DNA of 64,000 bases from Lentzea aerocolonigenes (GTDB taxonomy: Bacteria; Actinomycetota; Actinomycetes; Mycobacteriales; Pseudonocardiaceae): assembly GCF_000974445.1 (NCBI RefSeq), contig NZ_BBOJ01000005.1, forward strand, positions 284,917-348,916, written 5' to 3'. The position numbers and the translations under genes are program-made. Positions 15,313-19,138 of this stretch are shown here, one piece after another. The stretch's first letter is position 1. Every line of letters begins with the position of its first letter. The notes below the pieces were generated by a model. That model did not search any database. It was given only the letters and a program-made list of their open reading frames with translations, and had not been told where the DNA came from.

Positions 15313-15430
15313 GGCCGGTGGAGCGGGAGTTCGTGCGGCGGGTGCGGGAGCAGGGTGTCGAGTGCACCGTGCGTGACACGCGTGGGCAGGAGATCGCCGC
15401 TGCCTGCGGCCAGCTCGCCGCCGAGGGTTA
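15313..15430 (+). pseudogene. rlmN: rlmN 3'-end fragment, copy 1
   Basis: Codes for the last 37 or so residues of the 23S rRNA adenine-2503 methyltransferase RlmN, including EREFVRRVREQGV and CTVRDTRGQEIAAACGQLA, ending in a TAG after the usual LAAEG. The catalytic radical-SAM part is missing. It is about 93 percent identical to the corresponding part of copy 2 (17535-17651). See the findings for the proposed integration-site meaning. Confidence 0.8.
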
Positions 15431-15468
15431 GAACCCGCTGAGGTTCACCTGGGAAACCGATCGACCCG

Positions 15469-16125
15469 GTGCAATCTGTGGCTCACACTTCTACGGTGAC
15501 CGAGTGGTTTGAGCTTCCGACGCCCCCGTGGCCGAACTCTGAGGCTGATCTCCTTGCAGGCGGTGATGATTGGTGGTTCGTCGCCTGCATGGATTGGCCT
15601 CGCGACGCTTGGATCGGCTACATCGAGGGGTACCGGAAGGCAGCCGGCTTGATGCTCGCGCGAGTGGCCGAGACAGGACGCGATCAGGACTATCTCGTCT
15701 ACCCCTTCCTGATGTGCTGGCGCCAGCATATCGAGCTTCAACTCAAAAACCTGATCATCCAGTGCACACGCTACAAGGATGAAGAGGTTGACTTCCCTCG
15801 CACGCACAAGCTCGAAGTGCTATGGCGCAAAGCGCGGAAGCTGTTGAACGAGGTATACCCGGACGACACCGCCGCCATCGACGACGTCGAGCGTCTGCTG
15901 CTTCAGCTTCAGGCCTGTGACCCCACTTCGGAGCACTTCAGGTACCCGGTTGCGAAGGATGGGTCGCCTACCCTCGGAGCGCTTCCGCGAGTCCACATGC
16001 GCCTGTTCCAGGAGGCGATGGAGGGTGTCGCGACCTACCTCGACGCAACTGACACAGGACTTCGCGAGAAGATCAATTCTCGGGACGACTACCGTGCGGC
16101 GATGTACGACATGTACGGTCAGTGA
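15469..16125 (+). CDS. HEPN-like protein, first of a pair
   Basis: 218-residue helical protein of no named family. Around residues 80-110 it has YPFLMCWRQHIELQLKNLI and later THKLEVLWRKARKLL, the two-helix pattern seen in HEPN-type proteins; the FRYPVAKDGSPTL turn near residue 163 also recurs in such proteins. No R-x4-H motif with RN is present; Arg85/His87 are candidates only. Start is uncertain: GTG 15469, with in-frame GTGs at 15478 and 15496, none with a clear ribosome site. It lies between two rlmN tails and 20 bases upstream of a second HEPN-like gene, so both probably form a two-gene cargo. Confidence 0.6.
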   Translation: MQSVAHTSTVTEWFELPTPPWPNSEADLLAGGDDWWFVACMDWPRDAWIGYIEGYRKAAGLMLARVAETGRDQDYLVYPFLMCWRQHIELQLKNLIIQCTRYKDEEVDFPRTHKLEVLWRKARKLLNEVYPDDTAAIDDVERLLLQLQACDPTSEHFRYPVAKDGSPTLGALPRVHMRLFQEAMEGVATYLDATDTGLREKINSRDDYRAAMYDMYGQ

Positions 16126-16145
16126 CGGCAGCCTGAGAGGCAAGT

Positions 16146-16991
16146 TTGCGAAACACAGCGGTTGTTGAGTTCGCTGCCTACCGTCAGTACGAAGCGACGC
16201 GTGCCGAAGCCAACAACGCCATGATGGGACTCCTCGCGGGTGCAAAACTGGCGGCCCACATGCTGAAGCTCACTGAGGGTTCCCAGCGGTTGTTGCCTGA
16301 GGTTTTTCCGCAAGTCGAGCACATCGAGCGCGTCAACCTTACCAGCGAGGCGGCGCGCGCGATTCTGGTTGATGCCGACTCACATCTAGGTGCGATGAGC
16401 GTTCCTTACGCCCTCGCGCTGCACGAGGATTTCCTCAAGACCTGTCTGGAACTGCTCGAAGTAGCCGGCAAGTGCGCGAGGAATACTGCGAGAGACTCGA
16501 AGCTCGCGACTCAACACGGCCTTATCGAGACGGCGACCGGACGAGCCTTCAGCCCGGACAGCCTGATCCAGCTCTCGACGATCAGGGTGATGCGAAACTG
16601 CGTCATTCACGAGGGTGGCCGGGTCAGTGGTGCACTGGTCAACAAGTTGGGATCATGGACTACGCAAATCGAGGCTGCTTGGGAGAAGGTTGCCGGCACG
16701 AGTCCCCGGGGCCTCCAGGTTGGCGATCCAGTCACCTTCGGGCATGGCGAGTTGGTGCTTACGTTGGCCGTGACGAAGCGACTGGCGCGTGAAGCGAACG
16801 GGATGCTTCTGGGAGCCATCCCGAAGGCGCAATGGGCCGACCTGGTCATCGACGACATGATCGCCTCAACGAAGAACGCGATGAAACGGTCTGATGTGGC
16901 CAGGAGAGCGCAGGGGCTTGCGCGACACCACTACTCGGCCGTGGGGCTCGACGAGCAAGACATCCTGAATGCGATCGCGCGTCGAACGTGA
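16146..16991 (+). CDS. HEPN-like protein with RN-x3-H motif, second of a pair
   Basis: 281-residue, mostly helical protein starting with TTG, which has GAGAGG about 6 bases upstream. It contains IRVMRNCVIHEGG, a HEPN catalytic motif (RNCVIH, residues 150-155), so an RNase activity is plausible. The remainder shows no further motif. It follows the previous gene by 20 bases and is closed by a strong hairpin 20 bases downstream. Lying between two rlmN 3' fragments with only its partner gene, it looks like cargo of a small insertion. Confidence 0.6.
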   Translation: MRNTAVVEFAAYRQYEATRAEANNAMMGLLAGAKLAAHMLKLTEGSQRLLPEVFPQVEHIERVNLTSEAARAILVDADSHLGAMSVPYALALHEDFLKTCLELLEVAGKCARNTARDSKLATQHGLIETATGRAFSPDSLIQLSTIRVMRNCVIHEGGRVSGALVNKLGSWTTQIEAAWEKVAGTSPRGLQVGDPVTFGHGELVLTLAVTKRLAREANGMLLGAIPKAQWADLVIDDMIASTKNAMKRSDVARRAQGLARHHYSAVGLDEQDILNAIARRT

Positions 16992-17010
16992 CCTGGCCCG
17001 CAAAACGAAG

Positions 17011-17362: not shown

Positions 17363-17651
17363 GACCGGCCGCCGTGTCTCGATCGAGTACGCGTTGATCC
17401 GGGACATCAACGATCAGGGCTGGCGTGCCGATCTGCTTGGCAAGAAGCTGCGCAAGCAGCTCGGGCGGCTGGTGCACGTGAACCTGATCCCGTTGAACCC
17501 GACTCCGGGCGGCAAGTGGTACGCGTCGCCGAAACCGGCGGAGCGGGAGTTCGTGCGGCGGGTGCGGGAGCAGGGGGTCGAGTGCACCGTGCGCGACACG
17601 CGTGGGCAGGAGATTGCGGCGGCCTGTGGACAGCTCGCGGCCGAGGGATGA
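17363..17651 (+). pseudogene. rlmN: rlmN 3'-end fragment, copy 2
   Basis: Codes for the last 95 residues of RlmN, from TGRRVSIEYALIRDIND through NLIPLNPTPGGKW to the terminal CGQLAAEG and a TGA. The upstream junction falls exactly at the ACCGG of the TGRR codons, with unrelated sequence before it. The CxxxCxxC radical-SAM cluster and most of the enzyme are missing, so it is not functional. It is longer than copy 1 and about 93 percent identical over the shared part. The minus-strand HEPN/TOPRIM gene ends only 14 bases beyond it. Confidence 0.85.
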
Positions 17652-17665
17652 TTACGCCGGCCGCC

Positions 17666-18991
17666 TCACATTTCCTGAGGCAAGTCAGAATGCTGTGGGA
17701 AGGCCTGAAGGAGGACTGTCAGTATATGTCGCATTCCGGTCCAATCAGAGTGCTTGACCTCTTCCGGGTTGGCGCGACATTTAGCCAGCTTGGCGCGAAA
17801 TGATTTTTGAATGCCATGCTTGTCTGACACTTCGCCTTGGTAGCGACTGATGCTCTGAATAAACGAGCGCCATTGAACGGGTAGCAGATTGCCCGTGGCG
17901 TCAGTTAAGACATCGCGTCCTAGGTAGAGTTCGATACTTCCTGCTAGTCCGTTTATGTCAGCAAGCTCTTGAGTGCCATTTGGGTGCTCGGCCGTAGGCG
18001 GTCCAAGTGTTGGATATCTTCGCAATTCGTCTAGGTTGGGGTACTGTGTAACAACAATATTTGCCGGTAGCTTGAACTTTGTGAGCGGTTGCATTGCGTC
18101 AACTGCCGCGGAATCATTATCGAAGATTGCTACCACTCGGTTTGCGATGCCGGCTGCAGCGAAGGACTTGACGAGTCGGGCTAAAGCTCCGGCTCCGCCT
18201 TCGGGGCGCGCGTCATAGTCCAGAAATTTGATGAGGTCGGTTAGATGGGGGAACAGTAGCTCCAAGCTCGCAGCTAGGAACTCGGCGTCGGTACGACCTT
18301 CGGTTAGTACAATGACTGGTGCATGTGAGCCTGAATTCGCCTGCAATGCCGACAATGACTGTGAGGCAAGTGTGTCGGGATCGCCATAAATCCAGTCCTC
18401 CTCCACGAGATCAGTAACGTCGAGCCGTACCTCGCTGTCTGGGTACACAAGGAGCACGGCGCGGAGCGCGTGCGGCGGGAACCACTCCACAACCTGTCCA
18501 AGAAGCCAGTCGATGCTGCCGATCTCTGATCGAAACGTGCTCGGAGGTCGGTCGTGGTCGCTATGGTCCATGCCTTGGTCTTCTTTTGCGGCTATGGCGC
18601 GGTCGAGCCAAAGCTGTGGTGTAAGTTGATCGAGGGCAGCATCTTCGGCTTCCAGTCTGGCTCTATATTCATCGCTCAGGCCGGAGGGCAAGTTCGAACT
18701 GTGCCTGTGTCGACCTTCACCATGTAGAAAATATTCGAGAAGTTCTGCGACGGTGTCCGCAGTGATTCCGAGAGCGTCGAGTCGTTGGGCAATGACTCGA
18801 CCGTCGGCGCGAAACTCATAGACATCGACAAGTTCCGCCCCGCTCCCCTCTTCGTTGTAGTACTCGTTCCATGGAACCTGGTGCTTGACCAGCATGTCGT
18901 CGCGGAACGCTGCCAAGAGCTCTTGATCGATGCCATCGCGCAAGCGATTCACGACCAGAGTGCCAACCGACAGCGTCCCGTAGTAGCTCAC
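17666..18991 (-). CDS. HEPN/TOPRIM-associated domain protein
   Basis: 441-residue protein with the layout of the HEPN/Toprim-associated family: an N-terminal domain of about 110 residues (YYGTLSVGTLVVNRLRDGID, LVDVYEFRADGRVIAQRLDA), a linker, and a TOPRIM-like domain with Glu231 in VIVLTEGRTD and Asp291-x-Asp293 in VVAIFDNDSAA. These families were described from conflict-system loci; the TOPRIM part is expected to cut DNA. Start is GTG 18991. Base composition is clearly lower in GC than its neighbours, with ATA, TTA and AGT codons, so it was probably acquired from elsewhere. It sits alone between rlmN tails 2 and 3. Confidence 0.75.
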   Translation of the reverse strand: MSYYGTLSVGTLVVNRLRDGIDQELLAAFRDDMLVKHQVPWNEYYNEEGSGAELVDVYEFRADGRVIAQRLDALGITADTVAELLEYFLHGEGRHRHSSNLPSGLSDEYRARLEAEDAALDQLTPQLWLDRAIAAKEDQGMDHSDHDRPPSTFRSEIGSIDWLLGQVVEWFPPHALRAVLLVYPDSEVRLDVTDLVEEDWIYGDPDTLASQSLSALQANSGSHAPVIVLTEGRTDAEFLAASLELLFPHLTDLIKFLDYDARPEGGAGALARLVKSFAAAGIANRVVAIFDNDSAAVDAMQPLTKFKLPANIVVTQYPNLDELRRYPTLGPPTAEHPNGTQELADINGLAGSIELYLGRDVLTDATGNLLPVQWRSFIQSISRYQGEVSDKHGIQKSFRAKLAKCRANPEEVKHSDWTGMRHILTVLLQAFPQHSDLPQEM

Positions 18992-19056
18992 AGCTGAGAT
19001 GTTACGGCTGTGGCTGTTGGGCCACGGTTCTCGCTTATCTCCGATGGGTTCGCTCG

Positions 19057-19138
19057 GGTTGAGGCACAGCGTGTGACGTGCATGGTGAGGGACACCCGCG
19101 GTCAGAGGATCGCGGCGGCTTGCAGCCGAAGGCTGATC
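19057..19138 (+). pseudogene. rlmN: rlmN 3'-end relic, copy 3
   Basis: A short, more degraded piece of the RlmN end: VTCMVRDTRGQRIAAAC is readable, after which about 11 bases are missing compared with the usual CGQLAAEG coding stretch, leaving GCAGCCGAAGGCTGA out of frame. It lies just left of the TIR gene and marks a third boundary. Confidence 0.6.

Follow-up and report, generated by a model that had tools for sequence, protein, structure and literature searches.

We analysed a stretch of 64,000 nucleotides from Lentzea aerocolonigenes (genome G000, contig C51, positions 284917-348916; hereafter the window, with w marking positions in it), in which three truncated 3' ends of the gene rlmN, called tails here, alternate with small cargo genes that are probably anti-phage defences. 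An earlier note made from the letters of this DNA had reported three such ends, all on the plus strand, and had read them as traces of serial insertion at rlmN; the ends themselves are confirmed at w15315-15431, w17361-17651 and w19055-19123. For comparison we used a family sample of 249 Pseudonocardiaceae genomes and a genus sample of 24 Lentzea genomes, and breakpoints in relatives are given as coding-sequence (cds) positions on each genome's own rlmN gene.

Three rlmN ends and their cargo

The array is composed of the following features.

w15315-15431, plus strand: rlmN tail 1, from about own-cds 1026 to the stop; no recombinase arm
w15469-16991, plus strand: cargo A, a two-gene unit (218 and 281 amino acids), weakly HEPN/Abi-like; G+C 0.60
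w17317-17342, plus strand: attR-like junction of tail 2, arm TTGTAAACGGTAGGGAC running into core GGGCGAACC
w17334-17357, plus strand: first rlmN codons of tail 2 (GEPLA...), after the core and before an internal deletion reaching own-cds 853
w17361-17651, plus strand: rlmN tail 2, from own-cds 853 to the stop
w17666-18991, minus strand: cargo B, a HEPN/Toprim-type gene (PF18871); G+C 0.55
w19055-19123, plus strand: rlmN tail 3, cds about 1051-1119, decayed; no arm
w19200-20015, plus strand: cargo C, a TIR gene resembling SpbK (PF13676 just under cut-off; PADLOC spbK E 5.8e-23); G+C 0.61
w20046-20070, plus strand: second recombinase arm, GTTGTAAAACGGTAGG exact, running into GCAGCGGCGA

Tail 1 translates as PVEREFVRRVREQGVECTVRDTRGQEIAAACGQLAAEG-stop and is 92.1% identical over 114 bp to the intact rlmN of the same genome, while the main part of tail 2, of 96 codons and a stop, is 89.4% identical to it over 292 bp. 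Between the two tails identity is 92.0% over 113 bp, close to the 93 percent given before. Tail 3 resembles a Lentzea rlmN at 78% over 69 bp with 58.1 bits, the maximum among 200 dinucleotide-preserving shuffles being 30.1 bits; this match is weak, yet well beyond chance. Contrary to the earlier note, tail 2 does not start at 17363: reading by eye against three Lentzea rlmN genes places its arm and first codons, and hence its true start, at about w17317-17357, after which some 245 bp of rlmN are deleted. It is this internal deletion that hides the real start of the tail.

The intact rlmN, expected beside the tails, was located instead on another contig (G000:C43:31126-32268, minus strand), where it is followed by the same genes as rlmN in most of the genus. 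Searching the whole genome with the DNA of tail 2 returned, besides tail 2 itself, the intact gene, tail 1 and a 38-bp stretch with 84% identity. The rlmN of Lentzea G005 is a closer match to tails 1 and 2 (95.6% and 92.1%) than their own gene is, which makes an origin as copies of the resident gene unlikely. A single breakpoint at the rlmN 3' end was also expected, but the window tails start at different points, and these left ends do not mark one crossover point.

A shared breakpoint inside rlmN in relatives

The breakpoint emerged from partial profile matches in the family, where many extra rlmN 3' halves start at one point. The RlmN profile search gave more than one match in 22 of the 249 genomes, and it was rerun with places shown on these 22 and on G199. 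Displaced 3' halves start at cds 580 (G032), 579 (G149), 576 (G076), 572 (G207), 573 (G150), 574 (G238) and 582 (G014), and orphan 5' halves end at cds 588 (G032), 591 (G149) and 587 (G158). The stretch in question (cds about 576-590) encodes MGMGEP, so the attachment site put at the 3' end of the gene by the earlier note has to be moved to mid-gene. That note had named gene debris lacking a shared breakpoint as what would speak against it; the breakpoint is common to the relatives and survives in tail 2.

In 12 of the 22 genomes (G014, G032, G040, G042, G076, G099, G149, G150, G191, G207, G238 and G247) the extra ends lie at most 13 kb downstream of rlmN, and two more in-place scars came from the arm search described below (G165 and G204). 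G000 and G056 have off-site ends only, and the pieces of G158 and G243 are at contig ends. Not included in the scar count are near-full-length extra copies (G107, G159, G177, G221), weak matches (G007, G058) and pieces at contig ends or without a certain place (G158, G243, G199). Among the 24 Lentzea genomes, in-place pieces occur in G014 and G001, and G017 has a weak 25-base piece.

Several single cases were observed along the way. The displaced end of G014 (L039:12552-13254) is split and its last part inverted, as if by a short inversion with a breakpoint near cds 991-1002. The off-site end of G056 (G056:C1:2465920-2466042) is armless and lies about 2 Mb from the intact gene. The near-full-length extra RlmN-type genes (G107:C118, G159:C1, G177:C2, G221:C14) each belong to a single genome. 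Outside Pseudonocardiaceae, two Nocardia (L066:12135-12704 and L091:8365-8467) have extra rlmN ends that begin close to the shared breakpoint, with arm-like sequence upstream as judged by eye.

Arms, core and the large serine recombinase

Tail 2 opens with TTGTAAACGGTAGGGACGGGCGAACC (w17317-17342), which has a single copy in the window and none in 100 shuffles, the pattern itself having been taken from the window. A 25-base arm-and-core pattern, written from tails already seen and searched with one mismatch allowed, was found at 15 sites in 12 of the 249 genomes, and its reversed control at 0. At 13 of these sites rlmN codons follow (in 12 cases by alignment, in G204 from 17 consecutive bases matched by eye), and the two others are w20046 in the window and one site in G254. 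Five sites were not known when the pattern was written (two in G158, and those in G165, G204 and G254), and four of the five abut rlmN. The scan missed the arm of tail 2 because one base is lacking there. An arm followed by an rlmN end without its middle, as in tail 2, is also present in G165, G191 and G247.

The arms are inverted copies at both ends of the element, reading GTTGTAA... before the displaced half and ...TTACAAC or ...TTGACAAC behind the orphan 5' half. Such inverted copies are expected of the attP site of a large serine recombinase (LSR). In both G032 and G158 the open reading frame (ORF) adjoining the orphan 5' half is an LSR with Pfam Resolvase, Recombinase and zinc-ribbon domains, and G149 has at the same place, by which it was assigned, an LSR 40% identical to that of G158.

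The two halves of the host rlmN lie 45.4 kb apart in G032 and 46.7 kb apart in G149, and among the nine proteins scanned from these inserts are terminase, portal, head and tape-measure proteins in both genomes and an integrase in G032. Both inserts are prophages, and each of them carries a complete second rlmN ending 43-46 bp before the arm. The LSR relatives found in G189, G248 and G008 are, by eye, located in sequence other than rlmN.

A chimeric gene and stacked tails

The intact rlmN of G076 is a chimera switching at the core. Measured against one Crossiella gene, identity is 94.2% for its 5' half, 90.3% for the displaced tail and 80.7% for its 3' half, and the drop lies at the core. As the 5' half and the tail are both like the Crossiella gene, together they are the former host gene. 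Homologous recombination across the 5' halves was considered as the maker of this chimera and is set back by the position of the switch at the core.

Three tails are stacked in G150 (from cds 573, 1025 and 604 onward), and two have arms. In G+C the near long tail (0.64) is like the present 3' half, and the far tail is at 0.71; serial insertion would be expected to leave this order, with the near tail foreign in G+C and the far one host-like.

Toxin-antitoxin cargo is clear in the relatives. Of ten proteins from their insertions, six have Pfam hits, namely PemK toxins (G014, G042), PIN (G150, G001), a DUF (G150) and a PA14/RHS giant (G207). Defence cargo has so far been seen in the window only.

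Cargo genes and surroundings in the window

The labels given to the cargo before hold in part. TIR is supported for cargo C by PADLOC spbK and HEPN/Toprim for cargo B through a homologue: cargo B itself matches PF18871 with E 0.0014, under the cut-off, and a homologue 84% identical to it with E 1.4e-6, over the cut-off. What had been called a HEPN-like pair, cargo A, amounts to one weak PF05168 match of the first protein (E 0.099) and one Abi-like name among 149 homologues of the second. PADLOC gave no hit on cargos A and B. All three are below the G+C of the window (0.668). As for relatives of the cargo near rlmN, the sole HEPN-type relative in the 24 Lentzea genomes (G018) lies on a contig other than that of rlmN, and the three Toprim relatives in the 249 genomes are all on other contigs or Mb away.

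On both sides the array is bordered by the following genes and gene pieces.

w10827-12623, plus strand: GajA-like gene (Gabija), left neighbour of the array; PADLOC GajA E 1.3e-29, Pfam OLD-like TOPRIM
w12620-14263, plus strand: GajB-like UvrD helicase gene; PADLOC GajB E 1.3e-40, Pfam UvrD
w14260-15168, minus strand: HNH-type gene resembling defence effectors; PADLOC PDC-M68A E 2.2e-25, Pfam HNH_2 just under cut-off
w15189-15317, plus strand: methyltransferase-type gene fragment fused to tail 1; 91.5% to w23152-23279
w20062-20323, plus strand: HTH-regulator-type gene fragment behind the second arm; 80% to w30545-30763 and 86% to w31127-31168

The ORF of the GajA-like gene opens at 9636 and the GajA match begins at residue 398. 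With the Gabija-like pair, the HNH effector-like gene and the SpbK-like TIR gene recognised by PADLOC, several defence genes stand side by side here, as in a defence island. Next to the Gabija-like pair lies an HSP90-like ATPase gene (w8688-10646) with a weak PADLOC hit to type II restriction.

The fragment fused to tail 1, which we take to be of DUF574 type, corresponds to w23152-23279, near the start of a methyltransferase-type gene (w23075-23974), and only a few bases overlap at the fusion. The second arm lies behind the TIR gene and abuts the HTH-regulator fragment, both counterparts of which are inside one HTH gene (w30299-31603). The other half of the gene of this fragment was not found in the window, and no empty site of the HTH gene was shown in the 24 Lentzea genomes, nine of which have partial matches only, the window's own aside.

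Near the array, w22521-22853 is a diverged partial duplicate, 82% identical to G000:C50:40008-40340. Elsewhere in the window there is a lanthipeptide-type cluster (w32330-40026) with a dehydratase (Lant_dehydr N and C) and a LanC-like cyclase, in which one protein (w33452-35584) joins Lant_dehydr_C and PCMT methyltransferase domains, and the window ends in an exact 70-base tandem repeat (w63761-64000).

Origin of the array and alternative explanations

We consider it probable that the three rlmN fragments are displaced 3' halves from successive phage-like insertions, made by an LSR predicted to cut at the MGMGEP codons and each leaving a small cargo between the new and the old rlmN end. The parts of this reading differ in strength. 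Tail 2 very likely is a displaced half from an LSR-type insertion, as it starts at the recombination core with the conserved arm against it (w17317 onward), neither of which holds for tails 1 and 3. These two are probably displaced halves likewise, their arms lost; as they have no arm, they are assigned by the company they keep and by analogy with the pattern in relatives. The genes between the tails are probably anti-phage defences, and the enzyme for the window array would be an LSR. The window would then hold an array of units, each of rlmN end, cargo and arm, like that of G150 but off-site. Serial insertion at rlmN with displaced ends, as first proposed from this DNA, is thus real in the family and the best reading of tail 2, though the array lies away from rlmN and two of its tails are armless.

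The steps may have been as follows. An LSR-bearing prophage would insert at the MGMGEP codons of rlmN and displace the old 3' half. Later it would leave by pairing its own attL with the nearer, non-cognate attR of an older unit, which would explain both the chimera switching at the core and that no prophage remains. What stays behind would be an intact rlmN of chimeric make-up, together with the cargo and the old end but no integrase, and each round would deposit one unit of rlmN 3' half, cargo and arm. Afterwards the array would have moved away from rlmN, perhaps via insertion into the HTH-regulator gene (arm at w20046). The second arm beside the HTH gene suggests entry of the array at a secondary site, and our guess is that it came into C51 through the same kind of recombinase. 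Tails 1 and 3 would have lost their arms by deletion, tail 1 via its fusion to the methyltransferase-type fragment.

A number of observations weigh against this explanation. The array is off-site, away from the intact rlmN; inspection by eye found no arm at tails 1 and 3, and the second arm adjoins an HTH-gene fragment instead of rlmN. With two relatives' LSR proteins as queries the best match in the window has E 0.62, no integrase is among the 30 window ORFs scanned with Pfam, and there is no close LSR (E <= 1e-40) anywhere in the genome; this agrees with the earlier note, in which no integrase remains, and, with no recombinase gene at the other element end as in G032, G149 and G158, the array is a scar and not an element. 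The 16-base arm has three hits in the 24 Lentzea genomes and two in the reversed control, so that only the places and not the number are informative; two of the three are the G014 tail and w20046, and a one-mismatch hit in G010 has no rlmN adjoining. The armless tails of G040 (98.7%) and G099 (100%) are near-identical to their own gene, which fits plain duplication, and the armed tail of G014 is 99.8% identical to its own gene, which means either that a near relative was the source of the insert or that the two copies were homogenised. Defence cargo is also not a general feature, as PADLOC recognised one of ten proteins downstream of the relatives' rlmN, via TPR and HTH parts. Nor was a virus with this system found in the viral collection: the viral contigs have neither an rlmN tail nor an LSR relative, and in 60 viral stretches that contain arm-like 16- or 17-mers there is no LSR relative and no core behind the arm, although one of them holds a distant RlmN-like match away from the arm. 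The 96-residue translation of tail 2 matches 48 plasmid and 21 phage records, the best identities among the 20 listed of each being 85% and 39%, respectively.

Other diverged gene debris in the block (w15189-15317, w20062-20323, w22521-22853) also counts against serial insertion and favours random capture, by which a defence island took up pieces of many genes through illegitimate joining. The recurrence of rlmN would then be due to chance or to a single captured stretch that already held several ends. The unlike left ends of the three tails, the fusion of tail 1 to the methyltransferase fragment with few bases of overlap and the armless off-site end of G056 are in line with such capture. Yet three ends of one gene within 4 kb, one of them with the relatives' LSR arm and core, would be unexpected under it, and we regard it as unlikely.

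One-sided homologous recombination at rlmN with an illegitimate join on the other side would leave truncated old ends with random left limits. In agreement with it, the sequence that follows rlmN is variable within the genus right after the stop codon, the next conserved gene found starting 0.3 to 4.0 kb past rlmN in 21 of the 24 Lentzea genomes, and the armless tails of G040 and G099, for which it may be the origin, match the resident gene. A start and an arm common to many relatives and a chimera switching at the core call for a site-specific enzyme instead, and for the window this alternative seems improbable. Least of all do we expect that tails 1 and 3 were made by a tyrosine integrase at an additional site close to the 3' end of rlmN, where the earlier note had placed attachment: left ends loosely cluster at cds 1015-1031 (window tail 1, one G150 tail, G099 and Smaragdicoccus L082) and a Streptomyces element sits in rlmN with 11-base repeats (PMC9513070), but no common sequence was seen by eye upstream of the short tails, and no tyrosine integrase is among the scanned proteins near the relatives' rlmN, a minority of those proteins.

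If successive LSR insertion is right, it would explain how small genes for toxin-antitoxin systems and defence can accumulate next to a core gene in the absence of an integrase. The order of insertions would be readable, older gene ends lying farther out, and the 25-base arm and core would serve as a signature for finding such arrays, with a predicted attP/attB pair for a family of recombinases whose target is a conserved enzyme motif. A broader idea, which we put forward tentatively and hold to be possible rather than likely, is that rlmN in actinomycetes anchors an integrase-less cassette array whose units consist of a replacement rlmN 3' half, a toxin-antitoxin or defence cargo and an arm. 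LSR prophages would pick up cassettes when they excise to a far attR and deposit them when they excise to a near one, the host gene receiving a new second half in each round, and whole arrays could then move, as in this Lentzea. Such pick-up and drop-off by phages becomes directly testable, and if it occurs, it would be an integron-like and SCC-like cargo trade (SCC, staphylococcal cassette chromosome) run in trans by phages, with the stacked gene ends as a dated record.

Comparison with known systems

SCC, including SCCmec, and the Enterococcus cassette chromosome (ECC), both at rlmH, are the nearest working analogue. In the literature searched, most subscription journals being outside its scope, no displaced rlmN halves or arm-marked arrays were found, the accessible text of PMC9513070, PMC11983580, PMC5154133, PMC6222049 and PMC10083194 included. 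These cassettes, covered in part in PMC6222049, share with the present case an LSR (the Ccr recombinases), an rRNA methyltransferase gene as the address, variable cargo there, and remnants that keep att sites without a recombinase. Here the gene is rlmN and not rlmH, whose 3' region is the SCC site; what G032 and G149 carry are prophages, and the window array is off-site. Because the rlmN site is mid-gene, each unit carries a replacement gene of about 560 bp, unlike SCC.

The Streptomyces AICE03 of strain RLB3-6, inserted in rlmN, likewise makes this gene the target of an actinomycete mobile element (PMC9513070). It differs in being a conjugative element with 11-base direct repeats, and the passages on it in that source describe no displaced rlmN halves or stacked cargo. 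A survey of LSRs that target single conserved genes reported elements inside conserved coding genes, with many LSRs per gene, and targets that were not enriched in or around anti-phage genes (PMC10083194). The rlmN elements resemble these in sitting inside a conserved coding gene, whereas rlmN has 0 occurrences in the main text of that survey, whose passages on such targets describe no integrase-less cargo arrays.

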